A stretch of 47,305 nucleotides of DNA from Cytophagia bacterium CHB2 (GTDB lineage: Bacteria; Zhuqueibacterota; Zhuqueibacteria; Zhuqueibacterales; Zhuqueibacteraceae), in assembly GCA_030263535.1 (NCBI GenBank), contig SZPB01000007.1, positions 1 through 47,305 on the forward strand. Reading direction: 5' to 3'. Shown here piece by piece: positions 1,245-35,919 of the stretch. Both the position numbers and the translations under genes were made by a program. Numbering within the stretch: the first letter of the stretch is position 1; every line of letters starts with the position of its first letter. Below the pieces are notes generated by a model. It searched no databases. It worked only from the letters and a program-made list of their open reading frames with translations, and had not been told where the DNA came from.

Positions 1245-3011
1245 TTAACCTGTTTTCCTCTTAAAAAACCACACCATCAAGAGTCCCACTGCCAGCGAAC
1301 TGAACCCGGCAATCGCATTCAGCCAAAGCGCTGCGCTGGAAGCCGGCACAAACGTGAGCAGGATCAGCACAATCCCAACCGCCGCAGTCAACACCCCAAT
1401 CACTTTGTAAGATTGCATGGTATTCGGGTCCCAACCCCGCTCCGTGGCCAGGGCCGGTGTCTGCAACTGTTGCGCAAAATCCTTGATGCGCGTGACGGCC
1501 TGCGGGTCGCGTTCCCGCCAAAACGAAGAAAGGAAAAAAATCAACGCGCTGGCGAATACGCCGACAAAAATATTCGCTTCGTATTGATGCGTGGAAAAAT
1601 CGAAGACGACGTTGCATGCCAGCACCAACAACAACCCGGTGAGCGCCGAGACGATGGCGGACCAGGAGGGCGTCTTGGTATAAATGAATCCCAGCATCAC
1701 CGGTGTGAGCATGGAAGGCGTGAACCAGGAATAATACATTAACGCAAATTCAAAAACCCCCTTGGCTCTTTGCACGATCAATGCCGACGCAATGGCCATG
1801 GCGCCAAGCACCAGCACGATCACACGCCCCATGCGCAGTTGCTGATTGTGCGAAGGCTCCGGCCGGCTGAAATTTTTCTTGAGGCGCAGATAAACATCGC
1901 GCACCAGAATCGAGGCGAGATAATTCAACCCGGTATCGACCGCGCTGGTCGTCGCGGCCAGCAGCGCCGACATGGTGACGCCGATCATGCCGTTGGGCAG
2001 CAACATAAGCGAGAGCGTAACGAACGAAGCTTCCGCCGGTTCGGCAAGTTGCGGCCAAAGCTCTTTCATCGAGGGTAGCAGCACACGGGCAGCCATGGCC
2101 GGCGCGATCCACAACAGCGGCAGGAGAAAGCTGAGCGCGCTGCACAGCAACGCCATTTTGCGCGCATCGCGCTCGGAGGGAACACTTTCATAGCGCTGTC
2201 CGATGAACCAGGCGGCATTATAGCCGATGAAAATATTCACGAGATATGCCAGATAAAATCCAGGCCGGCGCGCCAAATCCGCCAAACTGAAATAACCCTC
2301 CGGCGCTTCGGTCAGGAGCCTTTGCACTCCTGCCACGAAACCCTCGCCGTTGCCGAGCGCCATGAACGCCAGCGGAAAGATCATCAGCGTCATGATGATG
2401 ATCACGAGAAATTGCATGACATCGGTAATCATCACGCCCCACAGGCCGCCGGCGCTGTTGTAGATCAACAAAACCACGCCGGTGACCAGCATCGTCACTT
2501 CCAGGCCGCTCAGCGTAACCAAGCCGGTGTTGAGCTGCCAATTGCCCAGGCCGAGCGCGGTTGAAAGAAAGATGCACAAGGTGTAGATGCCCAATCCCAT
2601 TCCCAAAATCGCCGGCGGGATCGAGAGCAAAGTGTACCAATACGTCGTCGCCTGAGAAAAGCGCTTGGTCAAAAACTCCATGGGCGAGGACAGCCGGGCG
2701 CGCCGCCATTTAATGGCGTAGATAAAATATCCCAGCGCATAGCCCCAGCACGCCGAGGTAAAAAGCAATATCGCCGAGAGGCCGTTTTTGTAAGTATGCC
2801 CGGCCGCTGCCACGAACATGAACGCCGTAAACCCGGAAACAAAAGTGGAAAGGCCGGCAATCCACCACGGCGTTTTGCCGCCGCCTTTGAAAAAGTCATC
2901 GACGGTTTTGTTGAATTTGGTGAGATAGATGCCCACGCCGCTGAGCATGAGCATGTAAAGTACAACGACAATGTAATCGAGATAGTTGAGTTGCTTGATG
3001 GAGTCGAGCAT
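1245..3011 (-). CDS. Sodium:solute symporter (SSS family)
   Basis: This 588 aa integral membrane protein belongs to the SSS family, which moves sugars, amino acids or organic acids inward with Na+. The N-terminus (LDYIVVVLYMLMLSGVGIYL) is a typical first helix, followed by the TVDDFFKGGGKTPWW segment matching the family's conserved 'eeyFlggR.lp.w' block. About 13 hydrophobic segments follow, with the conserved GGLWGVMITDVMQ block near residues 187-200. The ATG follows the upstream gene's stop after 6 bases and has GAGG of that junction as ribosome binding site, so translational coupling is likely. Context beside an epimerase and methyltransferase cassette suggests import of a carbohydrate or its acid derivative. 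It is not closely similar to the second symporter at 35920. Confidence 0.9.
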   Translation of the reverse strand: MLDSIKQLNYLDYIVVVLYMLMLSGVGIYLTKFNKTVDDFFKGGGKTPWWIAGLSTFVSGFTAFMFVAAAGHTYKNGLSAILLFTSACWGYALGYFIYAIKWRRARLSSPMEFLTKRFSQATTYWYTLLSIPPAILGMGLGIYTLCIFLSTALGLGNWQLNTGLVTLSGLEVTMLVTGVVLLIYNSAGGLWGVMITDVMQFLVIIIMTLMIFPLAFMALGNGEGFVAGVQRLLTEAPEGYFSLADLARRPGFYLAYLVNIFIGYNAAWFIGQRYESVPSERDARKMALLCSALSFLLPLLWIAPAMAARVLLPSMKELWPQLAEPAEASFVTLSLMLLPNGMIGVTMSALLAATTSAVDTGLNYLASILVRDVYLRLKKNFSRPEPSHNQQLRMGRVIVLVLGAMAIASALIVQRAKGVFEFALMYYSWFTPSMLTPVMLGFIYTKTPSWSAIVSALTGLLLVLACNVVFDFSTHQYEANIFVGVFASALIFFLSSFWRERDPQAVTRIKDFAQQLQTPALATERGWDPNTMQSYKVIGVLTAAVGIVLILLTFVPASSAALWLNAIAGFSSLAVGLLMVWFFKRKTG

Positions 3012-3017
3012 GCGGCC

Positions 3018-3869
3018 TCAAAAGTGGTAGGAGATTTCCCAATGCTTTTCGCCCTGCGGCAGCACGGTGTGTTGATGAAACGGCTCGAATGAAAAGGTTC
3101 TGTCGTTCGCCCAAATCGCCACATCCGCAAGCGGGAAATCGCAACGCGTGTGAATCTCGCCGAGTTGATCGTGGCGCAGCCAGGCTTCCAGATGCGCGCC
3201 ATTCAAATGCGCAAATTTGAGAAAGCATCCCTCCTGCCAATTGTGCTCGGCGTTCATGACGATATATCCTTCATTGTCCAATTTAAATCCCGGATTCTCC
3301 GGCAAAAAAGCAAGCCCGGACACGCGGCAGCAACGATAATCCTGCGTCAAAGGAAAAAAGGGATGCGCGAACCAGCGAAAAGGCACAGGCGCCTCGCCGA
3401 GATTTTGCAGCGTCGTGCGCGAATGCAGGCTGCGTTCGTGCAGACCGACTTCCCGAATCAAGCGAAACGACCATTGCTTGAAAGACTGCGTTGTCTCAAA
3501 GCGCAGATACGTGTCGCTTTGCCTAACTTGCCATTGACAAAAGGATAGAACCTGTGCATTGTTGAAAAGGTTGTATGGCCGCGTTGTGTCGCGCTTATCG
3601 ACAAGTCCTACACCGATAATGAGCCTTTTTTCTTCAATTTCAAGCTCATCTTGATATAGCGTGAATTGAAATACCTCGGGCAATCCTTGACCATTCACGA
3701 CAGCGGGATATTTTGCAGGAAACTCCGGGCCGCTGAGCAAAAATCCATGGCGTGCATCTTCAACCTGATAAATGTATCCACCGCTGCAAAAGCGCCAGCC
3801 GAGTCGGGCTTGATCAGCAAGCGGATCAAGGATATGAACCTTGAGTGAGGAATTGTTGAGGATGTACAT
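3018..3869 (-). CDS. Aldose 1-epimerase-like (galactose mutarotase fold) protein
   Basis: This 283 aa cytoplasmic protein shows features of the galactose-mutarotase-like beta-sandwich: a start with GLPEVFQFTLY, a central FRWFAHPFFPL resembling the HPYFN motif that carries the catalytic His of aldose epimerases, and a C-terminal FSFEPFHQHTVLPQGEKHWE, where the Glu of FEP sits where the family's catalytic base lies. The family interconverts alpha and beta anomers of sugars or acts on related sugar derivatives. It is immediately upstream of the symporter (6 bp gap) and 183 bp downstream of the methyltransferase cassette, with a small repeat between. The substrate is unknown. Confidence 0.72.
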   Translation of the reverse strand: MYILNNSSLKVHILDPLADQARLGWRFCSGGYIYQVEDARHGFLLSGPEFPAKYPAVVNGQGLPEVFQFTLYQDELEIEEKRLIIGVGLVDKRDTTRPYNLFNNAQVLSFCQWQVRQSDTYLRFETTQSFKQWSFRLIREVGLHERSLHSRTTLQNLGEAPVPFRWFAHPFFPLTQDYRCCRVSGLAFLPENPGFKLDNEGYIVMNAEHNWQEGCFLKFAHLNGAHLEAWLRHDQLGEIHTRCDFPLADVAIWANDRTFSFEPFHQHTVLPQGEKHWEISYHF

Positions 3870-4052: not shown

Positions 4053-5057
4053 TCACGAATACACTGCCAATTCTTCGGCGCGCTCATAAGCCGCGGCAAT
4101 CACTTCGAGCGGTGTGTCATCCTGAAACATGTGTGACCCCGCGAAGATGAAACCGCCGTCATTTTTGAGCAGCGCAAAAACGCGCTCGACTTCGCGGCGG
4201 ATTTCCGCGGCATTCATCACCGGCAGTGCGGTGATCGTATCGAGTCCGCCCATGAGGCAGACTTTTTTGCCGAAAAACTCACGCACATGCTTGGGCGACA
4301 TGCCCGCAGACTCTTGCACGGGATGAAGCCCGGACACGCCGAGTTTGAGGATGCCGTCCAGAATCTGCGTCACGTCTCCATCACTGTGCAACAACACCGG
4401 CACGTGCAGCTCATGGGCGCGATCCAGAATGATCTTCATCGCCGGATAAACCATGTCCCACCACATTTCCGGACTAAACAGCATGGTCTTTTGCTGGCCC
4501 CAATCATCGGAAAGCTCGATGGCATCAACACCCGCCTTCACCGCTGTCTCCACACAATCCGCGGTCCAGGCCGCGAGTTTGAAAAACATGCGCTTTGTCT
4601 TCTCGGGCTCCATTGCCATGTTGAGCAAGGCTTGCTCGGTACCGGGCAGCATGTTCTTCTCGAACAAGAATTGTGACAGCTCAAACACACCCCAAGCGTG
4701 GCAGAAAACGGCTTTATCGGAATCGTGAGACTTCAGCGCCTGCGCCACGGTTACCGAAAGAACTTCATCGCAGGGCGTTGTGAGTATGCCGGGAGAATCG
4801 GGCGCGTCCGGCTCAAACTCGAGATATTGATCCAAATCCAGAATGCGCGCATGATTTTCAGCGCCGCCAAAGGGAAAGCGCGGTAGAACGCCGGTGACAA
4901 TGTCAATGCGATGCCGTTCATTGAAAGACTCAATGCTGCCATAACGCGCCTCGACTTTGCGGCGCACCTCGGGATTCCAACCCGCAAAAACATTGAACGG
5001 AACTCGATCCGGTTTTTCGCCGGCGAGCACGGCAAGCACTCGTTCGCGTGAGGTCAT
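4053..5057 (-). CDS. URO-D superfamily protein lacking zinc cysteines
   Basis: This 334 aa protein is a uroporphyrinogen-decarboxylase-fold (TIM barrel) protein of the type found in corrinoid-dependent methyl transfer: it starts TSRERVLAVLAGEKPDRVP, the standard URO-D N-terminus, and carries HSDGD at residues 224-228, GLHPVQESAGM and LMGGLDT. The family's methyltransferases use an HxC...C zinc site. Here only the His is kept (HSD in place of HTC), and the later Cys is also absent (SHMFQDDTP). It may act on the methylcorrinoid or substrate without that zinc site. The start at 5057 was chosen because AGGAGG lies 6 bases upstream; a GTG further up would put this site inside the gene. The upstream corrinoid-protein stop overlaps that site, so the two are coupled. 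Confidence 0.82.
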   Translation of the reverse strand: MTSRERVLAVLAGEKPDRVPFNVFAGWNPEVRRKVEARYGSIESFNERHRIDIVTGVLPRFPFGGAENHARILDLDQYLEFEPDAPDSPGILTTPCDEVLSVTVAQALKSHDSDKAVFCHAWGVFELSQFLFEKNMLPGTEQALLNMAMEPEKTKRMFFKLAAWTADCVETAVKAGVDAIELSDDWGQQKTMLFSPEMWWDMVYPAMKIILDRAHELHVPVLLHSDGDVTQILDGILKLGVSGLHPVQESAGMSPKHVREFFGKKVCLMGGLDTITALPVMNAAEIRREVERVFALLKNDGGFIFAGSHMFQDDTPLEVIAAAYERAEELAVYS

Positions 5058-5063
5058 GTTCTT

Positions 5064-5069
5064 CCTCCT
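5064..5069 (-). promoter_or_regulatory. AGGAGG ribosome binding site for the second URO-D gene
   Basis: A perfect AGGAGG lies 6 bases before the ATG at 5057. The TGA stop of the corrinoid gene (5069-5071) shares its first A, giving tight stop/start coupling. It decides for the ATG over the in-frame GTG at 5072. Confidence 0.85.
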
Positions 5070-5722
5070 CACGCCGGCAGTGCAAGCAAGGCTTGGACTT
5101 CCTCAACTGCCGTCACGGCATCTTTGGCGTAGCCGTCAGCGCCGATTTCTTCAGCGAAGCCGCGCGAGACTGGCGCGCCGCCCACAATGATCTTCACCTG
5201 TTCGCGTTGCTGCGCAGCAGCGATCGCCTCGATGGTCTTTTTCATATGCAACATCGTGGTGGTCAGCATGGCGGACATGCCCACAATCTGTGGCTGATGT
5301 TGCGCAATCGCGTTGATAAATTGTTCCGGCGGCATGTTGATGCCGATGTCGATCACTTCGTATCCGGCGCCGCGCAACATGATGCCGACAAGATTCTTGC
5401 CGATGTCGTGCATGTCGCCTTTTACCGTGCCGAGCACGACGCGCGCCACAGGCTGCACGCCGCTATCAACCAAATGCGGCTTGAGAACTTCCATCGCGGT
5501 CTTCATAACACTGGCGCATTGCAACACTTCAGGGAGATACATTTCACCACAACGCATTTTCTCTCCGACCACCGACATGCCGGCAATCAAGCCTTCATTC
5601 AAAATCGTCTGCGGCGTGACGCCATTATCAAGAAGTCTCTGCAGAAGATCCTTAACGGCAGCAGTATTACCCTGCTGCAGCAAATCAGCTATTGCTTTTA
5701 GTTCAGTTGCAGCGTTCATCAT
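5069..5722 (-). CDS. Methyltransferase cognate corrinoid protein
   Basis: This 217 aa cytoplasmic protein has the two-part layout of corrinoid carriers in one-carbon transfer (MtaC/MtbC type): a helical cap domain over residues 1-88, then a Rossmann-like B12 domain. The cobalt-ligating DxHxxG motif is D103-M-H105-D-I-G108, and the downstream GMSAMLTTT and GGAPV segments complete the base-off/His-on signature. It carries a methyl group on cobalt between a substrate-specific methyltransferase and an acceptor methyltransferase. It is flanked on both sides by URO-D-fold proteins on the same strand (38 bp after the first, overlapping the ribosome site of the second), so the three work as a unit. 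No reductive activator of corrinoid proteins is in the window. Confidence 0.93.
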   Translation of the reverse strand: MMNAATELKAIADLLQQGNTAAVKDLLQRLLDNGVTPQTILNEGLIAGMSVVGEKMRCGEMYLPEVLQCASVMKTAMEVLKPHLVDSGVQPVARVVLGTVKGDMHDIGKNLVGIMLRGAGYEVIDIGINMPPEQFINAIAQHQPQIVGMSAMLTTTMLHMKKTIEAIAAAQQREQVKIIVGGAPVSRGFAEEIGADGYAKDAVTAVEEVQALLALPA

Positions 5723-5760
5723 AAGACTCCCAACAAGTTTGACAGAGATGATATGCCCAT

Positions 5761-6903
5761 TTAAGCAGCATACCGCCCGTAGGTTTTCGCCACTTCCACC
5801 AATGCAAAAATATTATCATCGGGCGTGTCGCGTCCGCATTGATCGCCCGTCGCAAGAATGAATCCTCCACCTGTTGCCGCGGCGTCGATACACGCCTTGG
5901 CTTCACGGGTGACGTCCGCGACCGTGCCATTGAGCATGGTTTCAAACGTATTGACATTGCCTTTCAGGCAAAGCTTGTCTCCGAAGCGTTGTTTGACTTC
6001 GGCGAGATCGACATCACCGCCCGGCGAGCGCTCCAAAGGCTCCATCACGTTGATGTCGGTTTCATTATAATTGATTTCAACGATGAGACGAGATCGGCCA
6101 CACGTGTGTTGATGGCAAATGACGCCGGCCTCTTTGCAAAGCGAAGAGATGCGTTGAATGATGGGCAAATCGTATTGTCGGTAGATGGCGGGTGAGCTTA
6201 AACTGAGCGATGACGCCGAACCGTTGATTAATATCTCATCAGGGCCCTCGGGCAACACGCGGCGCAAGGTTTCATCAACATAGTCTAAATAGAATTTCAA
6301 TACCTGTAGCATCATCTCCGGCTGTTCATAGAAATCGCGCAGAGCCTGCATGGAACCGCCCTCGCGCACCCACACCCAAAAGCCCATAAACGTCTCGAAG
6401 CCCAAACCGTAGATGCCCTGTTCGCCGATCTTCACGCGATTCTTGCAGGGATCTTCCAGCGGGCGCTGCGTCATGTACCATTTCAGCTTGGGAAAATCTT
6501 GGGCAATGTCCTTGATCATGGCGCTCATGTGCCACGGCGGATCTGCCACCGGATAGCAAACAACTTCCTCCAGGCGGCCGAACGGCGTGTCGAACCAACG
6601 CTCAACCTGCAATTCGTCATCAGAAGAGGCGAGCATACGCTCATGCCACTTCGGAACTTCATACATGGTCAAATTATCGTAGAGGTACCAGCCATCAATA
6701 CCGAAGTACTTTACCGCGTTGAGGTAGGCTTCATCCAGCGGAGGATCTTCATGCAAATAAATCTGCCAAAACGGTTTGCCGAGCAGCCGGCAGGGAATCA
6801 TATTGGAAATATCGGGCATGACAGGCACATGATCGGGCATTTGCCGGCGCATCGCGGTGAGAATGCGCTGGCGCGGCGTCATCGGTGATCTACGCTTTTC
6901 CAT
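5761..6903 (-). CDS. URO-D family corrinoid methyltransferase with full zinc motif
   Basis: This 380 aa protein is a URO-D-fold methyltransferase. It has the start MTPRQRILTAMRRQMPDHVP, and its zinc site is complete: H266-T-C268 in HQHTCGRS and C356 in GDQCGRDTP, with LKGNVNT between them. In MtaA/CmuA-type enzymes this HxC...C site activates the thiol or methyl acceptor. It is the first gene of the three-gene methyl-transfer cassette. The ATG at 6903 has GGAG seven bases upstream; an internal ATG at codon 8 is possible. Preceding it is a 206 bp gap with a CTCCGGAG palindrome, which could hold a promoter. The methyl donor is unknown; a methoxylated sugar or aglycone is plausible because it lies among glycosidases. 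Confidence 0.88.
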   Translation of the reverse strand: MEKRRSPMTPRQRILTAMRRQMPDHVPVMPDISNMIPCRLLGKPFWQIYLHEDPPLDEAYLNAVKYFGIDGWYLYDNLTMYEVPKWHERMLASSDDELQVERWFDTPFGRLEEVVCYPVADPPWHMSAMIKDIAQDFPKLKWYMTQRPLEDPCKNRVKIGEQGIYGLGFETFMGFWVWVREGGSMQALRDFYEQPEMMLQVLKFYLDYVDETLRRVLPEGPDEILINGSASSLSLSSPAIYRQYDLPIIQRISSLCKEAGVICHQHTCGRSRLIVEINYNETDINVMEPLERSPGGDVDLAEVKQRFGDKLCLKGNVNTFETMLNGTVADVTREAKACIDAAATGGGFILATGDQCGRDTPDDNIFALVEVAKTYGRYAA

Positions 6904-14446: not shown

Positions 14447-16669
14447 TTAGTCGGCCGCGATGAAAAGCCGCACATCTCCCAGTTCCATTTTCAGATGAAG
14501 AACGCGCTGCCGTTCCCCGCTTTCAACGCCGGTCAAGGGTTTATGCAAAGACAGCGTGCGTTCGCCCTCGGAAGTTGCCACAATCATGGCAACATCTTCT
14601 GCGGCAATGACGATATCCGGTTGCGTACTCCACAAATCTGCGCCCGCTTGCTGCGCAAGCCAGCGTAATATTTCAACCGGCAGCGGCGCAGCGCCAACAT
14701 AAACCGAATGCCAGCCTTGATAAGATTTGCGCGCAAACGCGATTTCCTGGGTATCGTGCCAAACGCCCAAAGCTGTTGCGCCATTGTCTTCGACGGCAAA
14801 ACGCGGGGATACTTCTTTCTTCACGCCAAACACAAGCTCACGCCCGGCGACATCGCTGCGAATCAGCATCGGGCCGGGTGTTTCTAAAATTCTGAACCGA
14901 AAACCCGCGAGTTTTTTCATGCGCGCCAAATCCAGCTTGTCCGGCGCAACGAATCCCGGCGCATAAAACCAAACGACGGTGGCGTTGCTGTCTTTGAGCA
15001 CAGCGTGCAAACCTGCGATTTCATCATCGGTGAGATAGAACAAATTCATCATGAGCAACAAACGGTATCTCCGTGCATCAGCAGGTTCGAGATCGAAGCG
15101 ATACAAAAAATCGATTGGAGCGCCCAGGCGGTGCAAGGCGCGCGCCTGCGAATCCATAAACCAGCGGGTGAAAAAATCCAGGCACTGGCCGCCTTTGGAA
15201 TACGGCGCTTCGGCGCGCCAATGGCGCGTGGCGAACAAGCTCTTAGCTTCGTAAACCGCGGCGATTTGCGCGCGCGAACGCATGTCCCAACGCTCGCGCT
15301 GTTCCCCGAGCTTGGTTAAGCGCGCGACTTCGGCAGTGATTCTTTCATCGGCATACCAGCTTTTGCGCGTGCGCAACACCGGGCCGAAATCAAACAACCA
15401 GCCGCCGTTGCCGCTCACCAGCATGCGGCCAAGATCACGCTGCAAAATGCGGCGTGTGCCCTCGAGCGTAGTCGAGCCCACACCGCCGATCATGCACTGC
15501 TCTTTTTCCACTTGTGTGCCGCCGCTGCCGTCGGGATTGATGGGCGGCGGTTCGAGAAACGTGCTGGGATCGATTTCCGCAAAGTAAAGCTTGCCGTGAC
15601 GCTTGAGAGATTCCAACAAAACGCGATAGCCCGCATCGCCGGCCACGCCGCGCGTGCGGCCGAGGTAGTTGCCGGCCTCGTCATAGATTTCATGTTCCCA
15701 CCATTGCCGCTCTTCTTGATTGGTGGTTTGATAAGAATAGGGACTCGCGAGAAAATCAATATCCGGGCTATTCAGAATTTTCTCCGGAGCGAGATGGCCG
15801 CCTTCGTGAATCCACACATTTTCGAGTTGATAACCATAAAAAGCGCCGCAGAGTACTCGATTTTTTGTTTCTTCTTTGGCCACGCGCGCGAAATGCAGCA
15901 ACAAATCCGCATTGAATTCATGAAAGCGGCGATAGTATTCCATCACCGGCTGCTCATGCTCGGGATTGCGCAGCAAGCCGAATGTGGTTTTCACGCGCGC
16001 GTCCAAATCAGGAATGTATCCGAGCTTCTGTTGCATGGGCTTGCTCAAATCCGGCACAAACTCGGACATGAAATAATGCCATTCGCCATAAATGCCGCAA
16101 CCGATTTGATAGCCAAAAATGCGGCTGCGCAGCGGCGAGTTTTCGACGTATTGCAAAAATGCGCGAAACAAATTCTTCATGTCCGCACGCCAGATATCCG
16201 AAGCGAGTGAAGGTTCGCGCAATTGAATGCCCCACAGCCAGCCGCCTTCTTCGCTGCGTATCGCTGCGCGGTATTGCCGGGTATCTTCCGGCTGCAAGGG
16301 CAGCGCGCAAACGATCAACTCACTTTCATGTTCGTCTTTCCACCACTCCGGCACATCCAGCAAAATACGCGGCAGGAAAAACGCCTCAGGATTTTGGGCG
16401 AGCAAACGCGCAAACAAAGCATCGTATTCCGACCAATCATAAATCTCCGGCGCGGGCCAGGCGGCATTCAAGCCCAAAATGGGGTGCAATAAATCAATGC
16501 CGGCTTGTTTGAAAAAAGGCGTGCTGTGTTCGAGTCCCCAGCTCCAGGCCAGCAAGGGATAGACTTCTTCGCCGTTTAGGATCAAACGCGGTGAGCCATT
16601 CTTGACGTTCACGCGCGCATGTGCGGGCGGTTCGTGGCGTAGTTTATCAAGGGTGGAAAATGTTGGCAT
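14447..16669 (-). CDS. GH42-like TIM-barrel glycoside hydrolase
   Basis: This 740 aa protein resembles the beta-galactosidase/GH42-type clan-A TIM barrels. A first strand ends VYPLLAWSWGLEHSTPFFKQAGIDL. The acid/base candidate is Glu196 in GIYGEWHYF and the nucleophile candidate is Glu365 in LYFAEIDPSTF. A class-I glutamine amidotransferase-like or trimerisation domain (LLMMNLFYLTDDEIAGL...) follows, as in GH42. The open frame extends back to a TTG at 16774, but that stretch is a repeat element (16705-16773), so the ATG at 16669 is chosen. No signal peptide is visible, so it is cytoplasmic. The exact family is not certain. Confidence 0.75.
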   Translation of the reverse strand: MPTFSTLDKLRHEPPAHARVNVKNGSPRLILNGEEVYPLLAWSWGLEHSTPFFKQAGIDLLHPILGLNAAWPAPEIYDWSEYDALFARLLAQNPEAFFLPRILLDVPEWWKDEHESELIVCALPLQPEDTRQYRAAIRSEEGGWLWGIQLREPSLASDIWRADMKNLFRAFLQYVENSPLRSRIFGYQIGCGIYGEWHYFMSEFVPDLSKPMQQKLGYIPDLDARVKTTFGLLRNPEHEQPVMEYYRRFHEFNADLLLHFARVAKEETKNRVLCGAFYGYQLENVWIHEGGHLAPEKILNSPDIDFLASPYSYQTTNQEERQWWEHEIYDEAGNYLGRTRGVAGDAGYRVLLESLKRHGKLYFAEIDPSTFLEPPPINPDGSGGTQVEKEQCMIGGVGSTTLEGTRRILQRDLGRMLVSGNGGWLFDFGPVLRTRKSWYADERITAEVARLTKLGEQRERWDMRSRAQIAAVYEAKSLFATRHWRAEAPYSKGGQCLDFFTRWFMDSQARALHRLGAPIDFLYRFDLEPADARRYRLLLMMNLFYLTDDEIAGLHAVLKDSNATVVWFYAPGFVAPDKLDLARMKKLAGFRFRILETPGPMLIRSDVAGRELVFGVKKEVSPRFAVEDNGATALGVWHDTQEIAFARKSYQGWHSVYVGAAPLPVEILRWLAQQAGADLWSTQPDIVIAAEDVAMIVATSEGERTLSLHKPLTGVESGERQRVLHLKMELGDVRLFIAAD

Positions 16670-16704
16670 ATCAATTATTATAGCGCTTTCTGAGTGTGTG
16701 AGTA

Positions 16705-16773
16705 CGTCATCAGAAGGAATCCTGTGAAACTTAGCCCTGATCAAATGCTTCACAAGATTCCTACGGAATGACA
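16705..16773. repeat. TGTCATTCC-type inverted repeat, copy C
   Basis: A 69 bp copy: the left arm CGTCATCAGAAGGAATCCTG is partly decayed at the tip, and the right arm CTTCACAAGATTCC then GGAATGACA is intact. It lies between the sugar isomerase gene and the GH42-like gene and creates a false 35-codon upstream extension of the latter. Confidence 0.82.
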
Positions 16774-16812
16774 ATCACCATATGCAAACAAAAACTACCA
16801 TAAATTGCGAAG

Positions 16813-19731: not shown

Positions 19732-19815
19732 GTTGTTTTTTTCGATATTTCTGCGGGAGCGAGCCGTCTCTGATGAATTTTGGCAATCAGAACCGGGTTC
19801 ACATTTGTTCCGCAG

Positions 19816-19860
19816 CGGCTTGGCCGTGACCGCCACGAAGGGCAAGCCACGGCCAAGCCG
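19816..19860. repeat. 13 bp perfect inverted repeat in intergenic gap
   Basis: CGGCTTGGCCGTG (19816-19828) and CACGGCCAAGCCG (19848-19860) form a perfect 13 bp stem with a 19-base loop. No T-run follows on either strand, so it is not a standard terminator. It could stall the leftward transcript between the heparinase-like gene and the dioxygenase. Confidence 0.75.
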
Positions 19861-19902
19861 TGGCTGAACATTGCCGAACGTGACTATCAAAACCCGCCGG
19901 AT

Positions 19903-22242: not shown

Positions 22243-22307
22243 TCTGTAAGAATCCTGTGAAAATCCACTACTGTCCTCAAAATTCACAAGATTCTTTCGG
22301 AATGACA
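22237..22307. repeat. TGTCATTCC-type inverted repeat, copy D
   Basis: A 71 bp copy: TGTCATTCTGTAAGAATCCTG on the left and CACAAGATTCTTTC then GGAATGACA on the right. The terminal TGTCAT supplies, on the minus strand, the ATG of the downstream heparinase-like gene, and the AGGATT inside the arm lies about 11 bases before that ATG, where a ribosome site would be. Confidence 0.85.
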
Positions 22308-22365
22308 GCGCAAAGTGTTTATGCAGATTAAAGCGTTTGCTTCCCAGTCTTTTCATGATCTCATC

Positions 22366-28009: not shown

Positions 28010-29044
28010 TTAGAACGACACGTTGACCGTGAAGCGGTGCGTGTTGTCCAATATGCCGAATTCGGTGAAAGCGTAATCAACCATGATCTTGTTCTCACCC
28101 ATCGGCACACGCAGACCGGCGCCGAAGGAAATGCCTTCTTCGCTGCGTGGGACATCGTCCAAAATCTGACTATCAAACTCATTGCGTTTCGATTCGGAAA
28201 CGCCGGAGTAGTTGAACTTGTAGCCGCCGCGCACCGCAAAATAATCACTGAAGGAGTATTCGCCGCCGGTGAAAATCAACTGATCGGTATCCTGCGGTTT
28301 GGTGGCGTCCGCCATGAACTTAATCGTGTGCTGCTCGTTGTGATACAGGTCAATCGAAGCGCCGACGCTGAACACCAGAGGCAGGGGCGCGCCGATATCA
28401 TAGAACCTGAGATCTTTGCCCAGGTTGTTGATGCGGGCGCCGATCACGGCATTGCGGAATCCGATGTTGTACGTCGAGCCAAAATCGAAAGCATAGCTCG
28501 TGGTGCTCACATTATCGATGCCCTGCCGGATGAACTTCACCGAAGTTCCCAACGCCAGCCGGTCGGTAAACCTGCGGGCGTAGGTGATATTCACCGCCAG
28601 ATCGAGGTAATCGTAGGTGTCGCCCGTTTCGTTGTCGTAGGGGGTGAACGTCGAGAGCAAAAAGCTCGGGACGACGTCACGATCCGCGGCAATACCCGAA
28701 ACGCCCAATGAAACAAAGCCGATGCCCAACGTGCCGAAATTGCCAAAGTCATGGGCAATGGCGCCGGCATTGTGGGAAAGATCCGCGATCCAACGGTTGT
28801 AGCTAAACGACGCCTGCCATTGGTTGTTGCTCAGCGCAATACCGGCGGGGTTCCAAAACATCTGATTGACATCACCGGAAAGCGAGGTGGTGGCGGAACC
28901 CATGGCAACGGCTCGCGCGCCCACGCCAACCTTCAAAAAGGCCGCGCCGGTATAGCCGCTTTTCTTCTGAACTTGGCCAAAGCTCAAACCGGTGGCAACG
29001 AGCACCAGTATTAGCGCAGCCATGACGCGTTTTATGAGATTCAT
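28010..29044 (-). CDS. PorV/PorQ-family outer-membrane protein
   Basis: This 344 aa protein starts MNLIKRVMAALILVLVATGL and then has a cleavage-type SFGQ. The body has GAAFLKVGVGARAVAMGSAT, GDVNQMFWNPAGIAL and many alternating amphipathic strands ending in FTVNVSF, the pattern of the PorV/PorQ 14-strand beta-barrel family. PorV carries type IX secretion substrates to the attachment complex, so it would serve the adjacent surface protein. The ATG at 29044 with GGAG upstream is chosen over a TTG 15 bases earlier. It is downstream of the surface protein in the same transcript, separated by a hairpin. Confidence 0.85.
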   Translation of the reverse strand: MNLIKRVMAALILVLVATGLSFGQVQKKSGYTGAAFLKVGVGARAVAMGSATTSLSGDVNQMFWNPAGIALSNNQWQASFSYNRWIADLSHNAGAIAHDFGNFGTLGIGFVSLGVSGIAADRDVVPSFLLSTFTPYDNETGDTYDYLDLAVNITYARRFTDRLALGTSVKFIRQGIDNVSTTSYAFDFGSTYNIGFRNAVIGARINNLGKDLRFYDIGAPLPLVFSVGASIDLYHNEQHTIKFMADATKPQDTDQLIFTGGEYSFSDYFAVRGGYKFNYSGVSESKRNEFDSQILDDVPRSEEGISFGAGLRVPMGENKIMVDYAFTEFGILDNTHRFTVNVSF

Positions 29045-29088
29045 ATTCTGTGTCTCCAAAAGATATTGAAATGCTTCTGTGCCATTTC

Positions 29089-29125
29089 ATGCCGCCCGGC
29101 ATTCGACCATCGAACCGGACGGCAT
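29089..29125 (-). other. Strong intercistronic hairpin
   Basis: On the minus-strand RNA, ATGCCGTCCGG and CCGGGCGGCAT form an 11 bp stem (one U-G pair), and inside it TTCGA/TCGAA form a further 5 bp with a TGG loop. No T-run follows, so full termination is unlikely. It may protect or process the transcript between the surface protein and the PorV-like gene. Its CCGTCCGG/CCGGGCGG arms are like the palindrome pairs at 1157 and 27908. Confidence 0.65.
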
Positions 29126-29142
29126 CATGAACGAGGTGCTCG

Positions 29143-31668
29143 TTATCTCAGGATCGAAAAATAACCGGTTTGCTGGCCGCCGTCATATTCCGCCACGTAG
29201 ATATACAAGCCGCTCGCGACTTCGATGCCGTCTTTGGAGAACATATCCCAAAAGAGCGTGCCATCATTCGGGTTCTGGCCGGTAAACGACAACACATCAA
29301 TGACCTGGCCGGACACATCAAAAATCGTGATCCTTGTGCCCGTCGGCAAATTGAAGAAGAGGATCTTGTGTTCCAGACCCGTGTCATGCAAGGCTTGTTG
29401 CTTGTAAGGATTCGGCTTCACACGAATCTTCAAATCACCGTTCACCAAGGACTGCGCCTGTACCAACGGCGCCTTGAGCACAAAGTTGGCGCCAATGTCC
29501 TTCAGGCCGGTCAGGGTTTTCGGATAAAACGAACTGGCCGTGGCAAAATTGTAGGTGCCGGTCCACAGGCCGCTGCGACCATTCCAGTTGGTTTTGTGCG
29601 TTTCCAGGCTGGTATAAGGCATGCCCGCCATGGTGCCGCTCTCGTTATCATAGGCCGCGACATAGTACCAGTAGGTAAAACCAAACTGCACCAACTCGTT
29701 GGGATCCTCAAACGCATATTTGTATTGATTGGCATCCGCACCGGTGTTGAGATAATTCGCCAGTTCGGCTTTGGGGATCATTTTGACGAGTTTGTACGGA
29801 CCCGAGGCGTCGGGATCCTGCACGCGATAGAAATCCGAGGCTGCACTGATGTTGGGGTTGTTGGGACGTCCCAGCGCTGCCAGTTCCGCATCCGTTGGAT
29901 TTTCCTTGGTTTGCAGATGGTAGGTTTCCATCATGCGCCGGCCCACTTGCAGGGAATTCACGCGCGGGAACGCGGTGGTGCGATAAATTTTGTAACCCGC
30001 AAAATCAGCCGCGGCTTCAGCGCGATTATCCCACTTCACATTCACCTTCACGTTGACGCTGGGCTCGACTTTAATGTCGGGCGTCGGCGGCGGTTCGGGC
30101 ACGTTCCAATTGTTCTCGTAAGCCCACTGCGCCGCTTTGCGCGATTGCCGCGCGCCTTGCAGACGGAAGCCCATGTACTCGATCATGACTACGTTGATGG
30201 TTTCCCCGACTTCAAGAGAGAAGGGGCCAACGCCGACATAAAAATCACCATCGAAGCCATGTGAATAAGAATAACCTTCCGTCCAGTTGTCTTTGGGATC
30301 GGGATTGTCCAGTTCCCAATTCTGTGTCCAGGTATTGTTGTACTTCATGCTGCCATCGGGACGGCCACGCTGGCCTTCCGGCTTCACGATGCCCACGAAC
30401 GACAACGGATTGCCGACTTCATACGGCTGGGTGGTGTCAAACCAATTAGGATCGGGCCTCAAATCAAATTTGGTGCGATCCCACACTTTGCCGCCGTTGG
30501 CATACCAGTTACCCATCGAGAGAATGTGGTTTTCCCAGGGATTGTGGTCGTTGTTGCCGTAACCTTTGCTGACCGAGGTAAACCATCCCCGTTGCGAACC
30601 TGCGCCCACCGGATGACTGTCATAAATCGTCTTCTTGTCCGGTTGCGCCACACTGCTGCCCGAGGCCGGCAAGGGGCCTTGCTTGACAGCAATCCAATTG
30701 TGGCCGACATAAATATCCTGATAATTCCGGCGACCGTTCATGGTATTTCCCAACGTGCGAGCGCCATCAGCGGCCCACGGAATGGTGACGGTCTTGCCCG
30801 AAGCGGTGGTGAAGGTTTTGGTGGTCTTTAGATCCGTCGGCGAGGGGCCAGTGAAATTCACCGGCACATCCCACGGTTCGCCATTTTCATCAGGTGTGGC
30901 ATCGTAACCGGTTGTCGGACCCGTGAACCAGCCGCTGGCCCCGCGCGTGCCCGCCAGACTGTTGGACATGCTGTTGATCGGCTCGCTGCGCATGTTCAAA
31001 ACCAGCGCATTGATGCGATTGTTGGTGCTTTCCGGCGTGCCGTTGCCGTCGGCATCCAACACACCGGTGTTGGTCAATTCAAACTCAACCGCGATAAAGT
31101 CGTTCATGTTGGCGTGATTGAGCGCATACTGGCGCACGCGCATCTTCACGTAGATGCCGAGGTTGGTCGGGCCTTCGGCGTTGTAAATCATCTGATGGCG
31201 ACTGTTGGGATCGACCCAGCTCGCGGCATTGTCGGCCAAGCGTTGATTATATGGCGCCGGCAAGCTCACTTTACTGGTTTCGAAAGCATAGACATAGTCT
31301 TTCGCCAGAGGATCAGTAGAGCTGGTGAAATTATTGATACCTTTGGAGTATTCAATCATTTCAATGGCCTGCTTCCACGGAATATGCAAGTCGGTTCCGG
31401 CAATGTTTTGCGTCGGCGTCGTCCACTGCCGTTCAAGATTTCCGACGCGTGCAAGATACCAGGATTGGTTGGGGTTATCTTGCGCTTCGTAGTACGTCTT
31501 TCTTACCCAAGTCGGCGCAAAGGTATCCCAAAGATCGCCGGCCGTAATGACGCCGACTTTTGGGTAGGGATCATTGGGCTTTGACAAATTTTGCGCCCAT
31601 GTCGCCTGCTGTATAACCATGCCGAGAATCAGCCCGACAAGTATGAACAGGAATTTCTTGTTTTTCAT
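29143..31668 (-). CDS. Large secreted protein with T9SS/FlgD-like C-terminal domain
   Basis: This 841 aa protein has a signal peptide (MKNKKFLFILVGLILGMVIQ then QATWAQ). Residues ~25-530 are beta-rich without a known domain. Around 545-690 a fibronectin-III-like part has WDNRAEAAADFAGYKIYR and YWYYVAAYDNESG. The end, LKIRVKPNPYKQ...ILFFNLPTGTRITIFDVSGQVID...GLYIYVAEY...GYFSILR, is the FlgD Ig-like/type IX sorting-type module. It is probably displayed on the surface; function unknown, possibly glycan binding or an adhesin. GAGGAA precedes the ATG. It is between the TonB receptor and the PorV-like gene, suggesting one outer-surface unit. Confidence 0.8.
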   Translation of the reverse strand: MKNKKFLFILVGLILGMVIQQATWAQNLSKPNDPYPKVGVITAGDLWDTFAPTWVRKTYYEAQDNPNQSWYLARVGNLERQWTTPTQNIAGTDLHIPWKQAIEMIEYSKGINNFTSSTDPLAKDYVYAFETSKVSLPAPYNQRLADNAASWVDPNSRHQMIYNAEGPTNLGIYVKMRVRQYALNHANMNDFIAVEFELTNTGVLDADGNGTPESTNNRINALVLNMRSEPINSMSNSLAGTRGASGWFTGPTTGYDATPDENGEPWDVPVNFTGPSPTDLKTTKTFTTASGKTVTIPWAADGARTLGNTMNGRRNYQDIYVGHNWIAVKQGPLPASGSSVAQPDKKTIYDSHPVGAGSQRGWFTSVSKGYGNNDHNPWENHILSMGNWYANGGKVWDRTKFDLRPDPNWFDTTQPYEVGNPLSFVGIVKPEGQRGRPDGSMKYNNTWTQNWELDNPDPKDNWTEGYSYSHGFDGDFYVGVGPFSLEVGETINVVMIEYMGFRLQGARQSRKAAQWAYENNWNVPEPPPTPDIKVEPSVNVKVNVKWDNRAEAAADFAGYKIYRTTAFPRVNSLQVGRRMMETYHLQTKENPTDAELAALGRPNNPNISAASDFYRVQDPDASGPYKLVKMIPKAELANYLNTGADANQYKYAFEDPNELVQFGFTYWYYVAAYDNESGTMAGMPYTSLETHKTNWNGRSGLWTGTYNFATASSFYPKTLTGLKDIGANFVLKAPLVQAQSLVNGDLKIRVKPNPYKQQALHDTGLEHKILFFNLPTGTRITIFDVSGQVIDVLSFTGQNPNDGTLFWDMFSKDGIEVASGLYIYVAEYDGGQQTGYFSILR

Positions 31669-31797
31669 AAATTTTCCTCACAATGAAGAGAAAAGTTGAG
31701 TCGTCGTCCCGAACCTTTTGCAGGCCGCCATTTTGACACGAACATCTGTCTTAACGAAGCCGCCTGCGCTCGGAAGCAGCGAGAACTACGATGACAA

Positions 31798-34731
31798 CTA
31801 GAATGAGAAATCAATGCCAAAATACAACTCACGAGCAATGTCATACAACGGCACGCCGTCAGCAGTTGTGGGCCGGTTCAGAGTGCCAGTGGGATTTTGG
31901 TCTTTTTCCCACAAAACAGAGCTGGCAATATCAAAATTGTCCCACGTCAAGATATTGCTTTGATTGAAGATATTGCGGCCTTCCACAAACAACCGGCCAA
32001 AGCGTGTGCCGCCAAAGTTGAAGCCCTTGCTCAAACGCAGATCAGTACGATAGCTCCACGGCGAACGTTTTTGTTCGCGGCCGCGCAGATCGGTGGTGGT
32101 GTTCGTCAAGAAATACCAGAACCCGCTTTGCGCCGAACTGATACCCGTAATGTCAATCTCGTAGGGCAGGTCAACCAGGAAGGTCATGGACATGCGATGC
32201 TCGCGGTCGAAACCAGAAGCCAGCGCATTACCGCCGCCGGTGATATTGACCGGGAAGGTGTTCCATTGATAGCGGTCATCAAACGGAATTCCGTTCGCGG
32301 CATCTGCCGCAGCGGAAAAAGCATTTTTGTTGGGGGAGATGCTGGAGGCATTTGCCGCACCTTTGATATAACTGAAGGCATAGCTAAACCGGCCGGACAA
32401 CCATCCCGAAGGCCGTTTTTCCAGTGTTAGCTCAATGCCGCGCGCATCGGCATAGCCGAAGCTGGTCACGTAGGTGTAGGAGCCGAAACCCTGGCCGGCG
32501 GCTGGATTGATAGAATAGCCCGTCGTGCCATAGTTGCTGATGTCGCGATAGTAGGCCGTGGCGTCCATGCGGAAATCCGGCAAGAACGACCACTGCACGC
32601 CGATTTCATAAGCCGTCGCCGTGGGCGGATCCAAAGTCACATCTTGCACATAGGGCAAGGAGGGATTCGAGAAATTGCCGTAGTTCTCGAAGATCAAGCT
32701 AAACGACGGCGGGGAGAAGAAACGGCCCCACGAATAGTGCATCGCCGCATTGTCCGAGATCGGGTGTGAAATACCGAGGCGCGGGCCGAAGAACCACTTG
32801 GTGGGCACATTGGCCGAGCGCAATTGCGTGCGTTGAATCGCGCCGCTGGGCAACGTGTCGGAACGCGACACATTGAAGAAGTCGCCAAATTGTTCCGCGC
32901 CCGTGTCAAAGCCGTCAATGCGCACGCCGGCATTGATGATGATGCCCTGATATTCAATGCGATCTTGCGCATATAAGGCAAATTCCTGGGGATTCAACTT
33001 ATATGAGGTTTCCTCAAATGGGAAGTTTCTGTCGAAGGTCTTGATGACCTGGGTGCGCTGTTGAAAATCTTCCACGGAATGGCGGCGATACAAAAAGCCG
33101 GCTTTCAACTGATGATTGAAATTGATCTGGCTGGTGAGATCACCCTTGAGCTGAATCGCATTGCGCTTGAGTTCTTCATAATAGAAGCCGGGCTGGCCAA
33201 AGCGATATTGCCCGGAGCTGAACGGCACATCATGATAGCGCTCGTTGCCGGGGTCGCCGGTGAAGAAGGTGCGTTGCGTGCCGATCACACCGCTGCCGCC
33301 AACGCCGAGGTACTTTTCGGATTGTTCTTTGGTCGTCAGCTTGAGAAACTCGCCGTCTTCGCCTTGTTCGATTCTGCCATTGCCATCATCATCGGAGTAG
33401 CCAAAACGCGAGGTGCGGCCGATGTAGCTGGCGCGGACATCAAAGAAGGTTTTGGGCGAAATGCTGTTGGTCCAGGCCAGATAGCTGACCAGTCCCAGTT
33501 TCTCGTTTTGCGGATTGCCCACCGGGAAGAATTTGAAACGGCTGCTGAAGGTACGATTCTTCCAGCCGCCCAGAATGCCGCCGTCATTAAGAATGACATT
33601 GGCCGTCAATTTTTGGGTGTTGGTGAGGTTGTAGTTCAACTTCAACGAGGAGTTGATTTCGCGGGTGAACTCGTTGGTGAAACGGCCGTGCGAATTGAGC
33701 ACGCGGCTGCTGAAATAGAAATTGCCCTTTTCAGTCAACGGGCCGCCCAGGGAAAGCTCGCCGTCCATCGTCGGGTCTTCACCGTAGCCAAACGTCGATT
33801 TCGAGTTCTCGTCGAAAGCCATCAATCTGGCGCGCGCGCTATCCGACGCGGTTTTATTGTTCAACAGGGATTGGCGGTCGTTCTGAAAGCGCGCTAGATC
33901 ATTGTAAACGCCCGGGCCGGCATGATTCAGCCCGCCGGCGCTGCTGCGAAAAAAGACCTTACCGGAAAGCTTGCGGCCGCCATCGCGCGTGGCGATATTG
34001 ATGATACCGGCAGAAGCCGCATCGTATTCTGCATTAAATGTTCCAGCCAATACCGCCAACTCGGAAACTGTTTCAGGGTTCACGTTGACGACATTGGTTT
34101 CACTACCTTCCGAACGCCGCGTGGAGGTGTATAGCTGATAGACGCCATCGCCGGTACCGCCGGAGAAATAGGTATCGGAGATATTGATGCCATCGACCAG
34201 GGTGCGGGATTCATACTTGCGGCCGCCGCGAATGTAACCACGGAAGGTGCTGGCCGTGGTTTCCACAACTTCGGCGATGCTGGAGGTGGGAAGAGTATTA
34301 TTCAACTCGTTGGCGCTGATGCTGGCGCGAGAGGCGGTCAGCGTGCGGTCAACCAGTGCACGTTCGGCCACCACCGTGACTTCTTCACCAGCAACCACGG
34401 TTTGGGTGAGCGTCACATCGATTGGCGTGGTCACATCCAACCGCACAGCCACGTTGTTGATCACTTTGGTTTCATAACCGATGTACGTCACGCGAACGCT
34501 GTAAACGCCCGGGGGCACATTTAAAATGAAGTAATTGCCATCGGCGTCACTGCTGGCACCCAAAATGGTGCCAACCACCGTCAAGTTTGCTCCCGGAAGT
34601 GGCGCACCGGTTTGAGCGTCTTTGACCGTGCCGGCAATTTTTCCCAAGGCCGCAAATGCATTGGTTGCGGCCAATAGAGTAAGAGCTATCAGCAAAGCGC
34701 CAACACCTCTTCTCGATACTCGATGTTGCAT
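31798..34731 (-). CDS. TonB-dependent receptor with CarboxypepD_reg-like domain
   Basis: This ~977 aa outer-membrane receptor starts MQHRVSRRGVGALLIALTLL then AATNAFA (signal peptide). The next ~85 residues (GKIAGTVKDAQTGAPLPGAN...GVYSVRVTYIGYE) are a carboxypeptidase-regulatory-like domain. A plug domain follows (VVAERALVDRTLTASRA...RTLVDGINISDTYFSGG), then the 22-strand barrel, ending YFGIDFSF. The ATG at 34731 has GGAGG seven bases upstream; a longer frame to 34818 is not used. No SusD homologue lies beside it, unlike classic Bacteroidota starch-type pairs. It is the first gene of the leftward run and likely imports glycan fragments. A LacI-type operator is upstream. Confidence 0.9.
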   Translation of the reverse strand: MQHRVSRRGVGALLIALTLLAATNAFAALGKIAGTVKDAQTGAPLPGANLTVVGTILGASSDADGNYFILNVPPGVYSVRVTYIGYETKVINNVAVRLDVTTPIDVTLTQTVVAGEEVTVVAERALVDRTLTASRASISANELNNTLPTSSIAEVVETTASTFRGYIRGGRKYESRTLVDGINISDTYFSGGTGDGVYQLYTSTRRSEGSETNVVNVNPETVSELAVLAGTFNAEYDAASAGIINIATRDGGRKLSGKVFFRSSAGGLNHAGPGVYNDLARFQNDRQSLLNNKTASDSARARLMAFDENSKSTFGYGEDPTMDGELSLGGPLTEKGNFYFSSRVLNSHGRFTNEFTREINSSLKLNYNLTNTQKLTANVILNDGGILGGWKNRTFSSRFKFFPVGNPQNEKLGLVSYLAWTNSISPKTFFDVRASYIGRTSRFGYSDDDGNGRIEQGEDGEFLKLTTKEQSEKYLGVGGSGVIGTQRTFFTGDPGNERYHDVPFSSGQYRFGQPGFYYEELKRNAIQLKGDLTSQINFNHQLKAGFLYRRHSVEDFQQRTQVIKTFDRNFPFEETSYKLNPQEFALYAQDRIEYQGIIINAGVRIDGFDTGAEQFGDFFNVSRSDTLPSGAIQRTQLRSANVPTKWFFGPRLGISHPISDNAAMHYSWGRFFSPPSFSLIFENYGNFSNPSLPYVQDVTLDPPTATAYEIGVQWSFLPDFRMDATAYYRDISNYGTTGYSINPAAGQGFGSYTYVTSFGYADARGIELTLEKRPSGWLSGRFSYAFSYIKGAANASSISPNKNAFSAAADAANGIPFDDRYQWNTFPVNITGGGNALASGFDREHRMSMTFLVDLPYEIDITGISSAQSGFWYFLTNTTTDLRGREQKRSPWSYRTDLRLSKGFNFGGTRFGRLFVEGRNIFNQSNILTWDNFDIASSVLWEKDQNPTGTLNRPTTADGVPLYDIARELYFGIDFSF

Positions 34732-35919
34732 AACAACCCTCCGTGTTAGGACAGGAGATAGAGAATTTAACCTCAGTCTTTTTGACTCACATAACTGCAT
34801 CAAAACACAGCGAAACAATTATATCGGGAGACTCACCTCCTTCACCTTGTTTGTAAACGCTTTAATTTTAGGTTAATCAAAAGTGAACGTTGGCGGTCAT
34901 TCATCTTGAAATTCTGTCGAAACTGTTCGTCAAGAGGCATGCAGCATTAAGCTCAAGGTTTCAGGAAGTTTGAGATTTTCTAATGCTGATTACTAAACAT
35001 GGCACATTAGGACAGTGCCCGGAGCGCCGTTTTCACAAAGCCTGAAAGATTGTGAATGAACGAAGAGGGCAAGGAACGAAATCGTGCTATGAACCGTTTT
35101 GTCATTATAATTTTTTTTCGACTAAAACCAGTTCAACCGCCTTTTTGAGGAGAGTATAAAGCCCGTCATCAACCATTAATAAGATTTAAACGATGAACGC
35201 GCGTTACACTATGTTATTATGGAGCATCAGAGGGAAATCAGCCAAACGTGTAATAATCAATCATTTTTGCGGCCAATATCTTTGCAACCGCTGCTAAAAA
35301 AATTGGCCTTTTTGGCGCATGGGGTTTGGCCGGATTTGGGGAATTTTAGAAATTTACGTTGCCGGTGTGAAACAAGCGCTGCGGCGTTGTTGGCGGCTGC
35401 CGGAGTCCAGCCCGGCTCAAATCGGAGGCGCGCCGCGCAGCTTTTAACCGCCCGCACAGGAAGGTATCTCAGTTTTGCGGGCAAAAAGCTTTCGGAACAC
35501 TATGCAAAAATCCCATCGAAGAGTCAAGCGGATAAGGTTTGACATTCAAATTCGGCAAGACTCAGCCGCGGCTTGACCATCCAGAGACGACACACGGCAA
35601 AACCAACCAGGGTTTCCGGTTTTCATAATCACATTCCATTCGAGAGTAGCAGGAACGTGCTTTCGAATGCCAAGAAAATTCGCCTGAAGCGCAATGAAAT
35701 TTGCGTGCGCGCCATTAAATTGTTAAGGCTTGATTCATACCGGTTCTTTATCGTACACTATTTTTCAACGTGCGCGCTTCAGGAATTCCGTTTCCCCTCT
35801 GCGCAGGACTCTGGCAAAAGGCCAGACAAGCGCTGTGTGATTGCCAGACGATTCGACCGTGCTCACCGCTCATAACCAAGGGCAAGCCACTCAGCCCCCT
35901 TCACCCCTCGGAGGATAGA
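34732..35919. other. 1.19 kb divergent intergenic region, no gene seen
   Basis: No convincing gene is present; a 107-codon frame from 35219 lacks a ribosome site and family traits. It must hold the promoters of both runs. Seen: the LacI-type palindrome (34852-34865), an inverted repeat 35637-35669 (CATTCGA with TCGAATG), and TTGATT (35730-35735), 18 bases, TACACT (35754-35759) as a possible rightward promoter. The 5' leader of the receptor gene would be long enough for RNA regulation. No riboswitch was recognised. Confidence 0.6.
34852..34865. promoter_or_regulatory. LacI/CRE-like operator upstream of the receptor
   Basis: TGTAAACGCTTTAA has the central CG and near-palindromic AAACG/CGCTTT layout of LacI-family operators (compare TGAAAACGCTTTCA for catabolite response elements). 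It is about 120 bp upstream of the receptor ATG. No LacI-family regulator gene lies in the window, so the regulator would be elsewhere. Confidence 0.45.

Follow-up and report, generated by a model that had tools for sequence, protein, structure and literature searches.

Two URO-D-fold proteins and a corrinoid carrier form a conserved cassette, possibly for sugar demethylation, in a glycan locus of candidate division KSB1

What would a corrinoid methyl-transfer cassette do in the midst of genes for glycan breakdown? The question is raised by a stretch of DNA of 47,305 nucleotides (hereafter the window; SZPB01000007.1), which is the entire contig C7 of genome G000, a metagenome-assembled genome (MAG) of candidate division KSB1. 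The window encodes two proteins of the URO-D fold, UROD_A and UROD_B, with a corrinoid carrier, CORR, between them; this UROD_A-CORR-UROD_B cassette is genuine and conserved, and it sits in a glycan locus. In many glycans of algae, plants and bacteria, O-methyl groups stand in the way of sugar catabolism, and the cassette might remove such groups by B12 chemistry. To the whole chain of reactions proposed below, with a methylated glycan product as the methyl donor, we assign a probability of roughly 0.45.

UROD_A, CORR and UROD_B are three intact open reading frames, all on the minus strand (Table 1), and their positions and Pfam domains agree with a preliminary description of this DNA, in which a corrinoid carrier was flanked by two URO-D proteins. 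For UROD_A, a longer GTG start is available at 5072, but a strong ribosome-binding site (AGGAGGA) lies just 5' of the ATG at 5057, and the latter is hence preferred as the start. About 11 nucleotides separate the stop codon of CORR from this ATG, and 38 nucleotides separate UROD_B from CORR. In terms of the carrier, the B12-binding_2 and B12-binding domains, the DxHxxG cobalamin motif (DMHDIG, residues 103-108) and the length of about 215 amino acids are those of the free-standing corrinoid proteins of methyltransferase systems (MtaC/MtbC/MtgC), and a match to PDB entry 1y80 was obtained at 7.3e-60. None of the three proteins reaches any NCBIfam cut-off; CORR remains below those of the named substrate classes, with MtgC as the best (204 of 370 bits) and pyl_corrinoid at 177 of 215 bits. 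Scans for promoters and terminators gave matches at chance level only. Corrinoid chemistry is very probably what the cassette performs.

In a comparative set of 82 genomes from one phylum, the order of the cassette is kept together with glycan genes in G075, G076 and G077, all of the same genus, at 70-100% identity, and the cassette is therefore beyond a chance arrangement. Indeed, CORR lies between the two URO-D proteins at a spacing of 11-38 nucleotides in all genomes of the genus, and such a tight, CORR-centred order alongside glycan genes in four genomes supports a role in glycan breakdown. In G080, which belongs to a sister genus, the order is HepII_2, UROD_B (84%), CORR (73%), MtaB and SSF1 (71%); namely, MtaB occupies the position of UROD_A. 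This MtaB (L125, 9267-10274) breaks off at about residue 311 of 454, immediately ahead of the symporter gene, and could reflect gene decay or faulty assembly, though its place is informative.

The two URO-D proteins differ from each other in their nearest structural matches and in phylogeny. Their AlphaFold (AF2) models are confident, with predicted local distance difference test (pLDDT) scores of 91.9 for UROD_A and 86.7 for UROD_B. For UROD_A, the top Foldseek matches were HemE structures, with MtaA at rank 5, whereas the best match of UROD_B was MtaA (4ay7), a methyl-corrinoid:thiol enzyme, which favors an acceptor-side role of UROD_B. In a tree of 55 rows, the UROD_A and UROD_B families form separate clades (support 99/98 and 100/100), and UROD_B is placed beside an H-C-C group (G079 and contig C480 of G000) with support of 97/85 and a long-branch warning. 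Against NCBIfam TIGR01463 (cut-off 235.4 bits), UROD_B scored 76 and UROD_A 44 bits; against TIGR01464 (hemE, cut-off 303 bits), UROD_A scored 43 bits and UROD_B was not among the matches. Neither protein can be taken as a HemE paralogue, since both are far below the hemE cut-off and G000 has a proper HemE, namely a separate HemE-like protein with 464 bits to Pfam URO-D.

The active sites were compared in columns set by profile alignment with MtaA (4ay7) and by a joint alignment of 55 URO-D proteins including MtaA and CmuA. UROD_B had been described as keeping the full HxC...C zinc motif, and H266, C268 and C356 are present; the column of the third zinc Cys in MtaA/CmuA is, however, occupied by D354, which is invariant in all 18 homologues. 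C356, located two residues downstream, is replaced by T or V in five of the 18 (G002, G003, G006, G027 and G028). Among these, the homologues in G027/G028 have CORR in the same cluster, and in G002/G003, CORR lies upstream on the contig of the homologue at a distance of about 22-26 kb; C356 thus appears dispensable alongside corrinoid genes. Being off register with MtaA/CmuA and lost in the five homologues, C356 is thus unlikely as the third zinc ligand. As for UROD_A, HSD at 224-226 and the lack of a late Cys were correctly noted, but there is more than loss: the protein has a conserved polar site of its own with His309, which stands in the third zinc Cys column, is invariant in 13 of 13 full-length homologues and matches a His position of HemE. 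The sites are accordingly best read from the alignments as H-C-D in UROD_B and H-D-H in UROD_A, rather than as H-C-C plus a degenerate one, and the His-x-Cys ... Cys zinc ligands of MtaA/CmuA/MtbA (SCMT) are found in neither. These residues may bind a metal. According to Kountz and Balskus (PMC10418091), H-C-C goes with S/Se substrates and its replacement by a carboxylate with O-substrates; by this criterion, UROD_A resembles the O-type, and UROD_B cannot be assigned clearly. Also, CdmB is a URO-D methyltransferase I that works without zinc (PMC13222342).

From gene content, conservation, fold, motifs and linkage, we infer the following scheme, starting with substrate binding. The substrate, a methylated and probably O-methylated compound from glycan breakdown, would bind the His-Asp-His pocket of UROD_A, which would pass the methyl group to Co(I) of CORR; UROD_B would then transfer it from CORR to an acceptor, for which a thiol, e.g. 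homocysteine, is the most likely candidate. The demethylated sugar could thereby enter catabolism, and the methyl group would be salvaged. Since MtaB holds its slot in G080, UROD_A is probably the donor-side (methyl-donor:corrinoid) methyltransferase, while the evidence leans slightly towards UROD_B as the acceptor-side (methyl-corrinoid:acceptor) one. The division into donor and acceptor proposed from the asymmetry of the two proteins thus gains from MtaB in the place of UROD_A. UROD_B, for its part, is no plain His-Cys-Cys thiol enzyme. A methyl sugar is our best single guess for the substrate, and a tentative one.

The choice of homocysteine draws on the rest of the phylum. In about ten genomes (G001, G002, G003, G036, G037, G038, G041, G043, G044 and G055), standalone homocysteine S-methyltransferase genes adjoin standalone CORR genes in the manner of a split methionine synthase, which suggests that homocysteine serves the phylum as a sink for methyl groups. 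MtaA/MetE-type folds, furthermore, activate thiols, and homocysteine is favored as the acceptor for these two reasons. The UROD_A homologues in G073 and G074 come after a homocysteine S-methyltransferase gene. In several families (L154, L155, L156 and L158), a CORR homologue is followed by a GHMP-kinase-like gene (in L155 and L156) and a DegT aminotransferase gene, with a glycosyltransferase upstream in L156; this is a separate and possibly biosynthetic context of the carrier.

Is the linkage to glycan genes found beyond the genus? In G075-G077, G080, G024/G027/G028, G002/G003 and G061, homologues of the glycan genes of the window have CORR with URO-D and/or MtaB in their vicinity, so that the repeated co-location with heparinase or glycan genes, for which the preliminary description had recommended looking, does exist. 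In G027/G028, the cluster is composed of RACo, CORR, MtaB, two or three further URO-Ds, UROD_B and UROD_A, adjoins genes for SDR, cyclase, FAA-hydrolase, 2-hydroxyacid dehydrogenase and ADH together with p14447, and has its core in common with G024 and G026; the link of CORR/URO-D to sugar-acid genes (SDR, FAA hydrolase, 2-hydroxyacid dehydrogenase and ADH) extends over G026-G028. One KSB1 family (L139 7111-16001, L062, L164 and L175) has a conserved cluster of RACo, CORR, MtaB and two H-C-H URO-Ds, accompanied by sugar-acid genes (SDR, cyclase, FAA hydrolase and ADH) or p14447. In G002/G003, homocysteine methyltransferase, a PocR-AraC regulator, CORR and RACo stand together, and further on the same contig are MtaB (in G002 upstream and on the opposite strand), p19903, TonB, PorV, UROD_B, a heparinase homologue and UROD_A; this locus contains a TonB/p29143/PorV unit homologous to that of the window. 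CORR also immediately precedes homologues of the TonB-dependent receptor, p29143 and PorV in G031-G033. In G061, a single strand carries CORR, an H-C-D URO-D, SSF, GH1, radical SAM, amidohydrolase and ThuA genes, followed by DegT, deacetylase, heparinase, p14447, SSF and heparinase genes.

Homologues of p14447 (about 45% identity or more) occur in 13 genera of six families, and CORR lies within about 25 kb of them in five genera of three families. A genome of roughly 5 Mb holds one to three CORR genes, for which the chance expectation is 1-3% per locus, and the binomial tail by family, allowing 1-5%, is about 2e-5 to 2e-3, where the families are non-independent, draft contigs end near several of the loci and the threshold was picked after looking. 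These figures are supportive but not conclusive evidence that the p14447-CORR linkage exceeds chance. In a single-protein scan of genome contigs, the sole matches were two KSB1 pieces from almost the same species, and any reach of the pattern beyond the phylum therefore rests on two plasmid records.

Several observations weigh against sugar demethylation by this cassette. The His-Cys-Asp site of UROD_B differs from the His-Cys-Cys site of known thiol methyltransferases; MtaB of G080 is truncated, in a MAG with contamination of 9%; and G077 (100% complete, 20 contigs) carries the cassette (L045) with no RACo hit. Homologues of UROD_A are found without CORR in G074, G081 and one contig of G080, and those of UROD_B in G037 are beside GH10 and alpha-amylase genes with CORR absent. 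The inference from the neighborhood alone is weakened, because both URO-D families occur in loci with no corrinoid gene. More distant URO-Ds are present in a Chloroflexota plasmid sugar locus, with no CORR in the stretch read; in a Subdoligranulum plasmid (L146, 102-16954), several URO-Ds are among GH2, GH78, ROK and PocR-AraC genes in a stretch with no corrinoid gene. Thus, URO-Ds turn up in sugar loci more widely, and B12 does not necessarily follow from their presence.

In place of a sugar, the substrate might be a methyl-S or methyl-Se compound or a methylated osmolyte, with the placement in the glycan locus being regulatory or historical; both URO-Ds could then be on the donor side, and the methyl group would go to folate via the pterin-binding protein on contig C13. 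Among described systems with multiple URO-Ds and a corrinoid protein, type 1 mlp clusters come nearest and do act on methyl-Se/S compounds (PMC10418091), and the pterin-binding methyltransferase, MTHFR-type protein and RACo of C13 could serve in trans. The His-Cys-Cys site of mlp enzymes is, however, in neither URO-D, the same linkage to glycan genes recurs in several families, and the cassette of G077 goes without RACo, and we consider this substrate unlikely. In G000, the sole RACo is on C13, and pterin-binding proteins are only on C340 and C13; under the main scheme as well, the C13 genes could provide an alternative exit of the methyl group to folate in trans. A fuller second corrinoid system on C13 (L061 7792-16799; L181 661-8387) consists of RACo, a 421-amino-acid protein, URO-D, CORR, the MTHFR-type protein and the pterin-binding protein, and UxuA (mannonate dehydratase) is encoded close by.

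A still less probable source of the methyl group is methanol, or a comparable simple C1 compound, set free from methyl-esterified uronic acids of the glycan; the cassette would scavenge it, with UROD_A standing in for MtaB and acting on a related small substrate. MtaB is directly beside CORR in G006, G016, G024, G026, G027, G028 and G065 and in the slot of UROD_A in G080, and the heparinase-type lyases suggest a uronic-acid glycan; nonetheless, MtaB is nowhere in G000, no pectin methylesterase family is among the annotated genes of the window, and UROD_A and MtaB are non-homologous. A corrinoid-independent reaction of UROD_A and UROD_B, with CORR as a neighbor serving something else, would suit the UROD_B family in the glycan locus of G037, UROD_A beside a sugar-isomerase-like gene in G081 (the stretches read include no corrinoid gene) and the URO-Ds of the two plasmids, but is hardly probable given CORR between both URO-Ds throughout the genus, its retention with UROD_B in G080 and the clustering of URO-Ds with CORR, MtaB and RACo in G026-G028.

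Table 1. Positions of the cassette and neighboring features in the window
Feature	Position	Strand	Evidence or remark
UROD_A: URO-D-fold protein, invariant H224-x-D226 ... H309	4053..5057	minus	Pfam URO-D 3.1e-29 (4053-5072)
CORR: free-standing corrinoid (B12) carrier	5069..5722	minus	Pfam B12-binding_2 1.9e-21, B12-binding 1.4e-31
UROD_B: URO-D-fold protein, H266-x-C268 ... D354	5761..6903	minus	Pfam URO-D 2.3e-24
SSF1: sodium:solute symporter	1245..3011	minus	Pfam SSF 2.2e-29; adjoins the cassette in G080 too
p3018: 283-amino-acid protein of no known family	3018..3869	minus	adjoins UROD_A also in G075, G076, G077
Trehalase/GH37-like glycosidase	7110-8438	minus	Pfam Trehalase 2.6e-66
Six-hairpin rhamnosidase-like glycosidase	8453-11053	minus	Pfam Bac_rhamnosid6H 3.3e-07
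p14447: protein of no known family	14447..16774	minus	homologues adjoin corrinoid/URO-D clusters in G024, G027, G028, G061
Heparinase II/III-like proteins	19903-22356, 22366-24438, 25210-27474	minus	Pfam Hepar_II_III_C
Outer-membrane unit: PorV-like, p29143, TonB-dependent receptor	28010..34818	minus	Pfam TonB receptor 1.9e-21, PorV weak

Glycosidase-, heparinase-, SSF- and TonB-type genes surround the cassette. Every assigned gene from 210 to 34818 is on the minus strand, and these include genes for a CN-hydrolase, an SSF symporter, the cassette, trehalase-like and rhamnosidase-like glycosidases, a sulfotransferase, DUF2961, a PhyH dioxygenase, heparinase II/III-like proteins, PorV and a TonB receptor. 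The cassette is hence among glycosidases and symporters as originally described, and no recognizable genes for methylamine or aromatic-ring metabolism, which would have spoken against a glycan role, adjoin it; the locus contains neither an activating enzyme nor a folate methyltransferase. A plus-strand operon follows with SSF, DeoC/LacD aldolase, GFO/IDH, lyxose isomerase, DUF4432, GH32/130-like and heparinase genes. The protein at 19903 weakly matches a heparinase III in PDB; p3018 matches no Pfam family even at E 5, and p14447 and p16813 match none at loose cut-offs either. The PhyH dioxygenase (18946-19890) could conceivably be the demethylase, but no homologue was matched at the corresponding place in G076. 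A sulfotransferase-family gene (13549-14376) is within the apparently catabolic locus and about 70% conserved in G076 and G077, and a SAM-dependent methyltransferase-like gene (42550-43266) in the plus-strand operon matched no counterpart in the equivalent operon of G076/G077.

It is conceivable, and somewhat short of an even chance, that some KSB1 bacteria demethylate O-methylated sugars via this cassette, as an O2-independent alternative to the P450 route in which the methyl group is saved. If so, polysaccharide breakdown would be tied to B12 and one-carbon metabolism, which would be new for carbohydrate breakdown and would explain how anaerobes could handle methylated glycans. The cassette and its MtaB-containing relatives offer specific proteins for testing the demethylation of methyl sugars. 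In the literature searched, the described route of sugar demethylation is P450-based, requires O2 and releases formaldehyde (PMC10033563); B12-dependent sugar demethylation was not found in the open-licence literature, which is weak evidence of its absence.

How does the cassette compare with known systems? The P450 demethylation of 6-O-methyl-galactose from porphyran (PMC10033563) likewise removes a sugar O-methyl group in a polysaccharide locus, as is only proposed for the cassette, but is oxidative, O2-dependent and carried out by unrelated proteins with formaldehyde as the product. In MtaABC and MtbA of methanogens, the three-part logic is the same, namely a donor methyltransferase, a corrinoid protein and a URO-D-type second methyltransferase (MtaA); UROD_A, however, has the URO-D fold and is not MtaB, UROD_B is far below the cut-offs of the MtaA/MtbA models, and this bacterium is not expected to have coenzyme M. 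MtvABC, Odm/Vdm, MtoABCD (acetogen and archaeal O-demethylases) and CdmBCA also combine a URO-D-fold methyltransferase I with a free-standing corrinoid protein, and some of their methyltransferases I do without zinc or without the Cys ligands (PMC13222342; PMC8630106). The substrates of these systems are aromatic methyl ethers or haloalkanes, and a folate/pterin methyltransferase II takes part together with an activating enzyme, whereas the cassette has a second URO-D in the place of methyltransferase II, with the folate/pterin methyltransferase II and activator genes outside the locus; the former gene, expected in the cluster of an acetogen-type O-demethylase, is thus missing from that of the cassette. 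Type 1 mlp clusters (PMC10418091) share several URO-Ds and a corrinoid protein (at least two URO-Ds and the carrier in one direction, as in the cassette) and a cluster with no folate methyltransferase. Their enzymes are, however, S/Se methyltransferases of the His-Cys-Cys type, and a Ram/RACE gene belongs to the cluster, while the cassette has His-Cys-Asp and His-Asp-His sites, no Ram/RACE reductive activase within 2 kb and RACo on C13 only; both the activator and the metal site exclude membership of type 1 mlp. In conclusion, the UROD_A-CORR-UROD_B cassette belongs to no named system and is a new variant of corrinoid methyltransferase systems.

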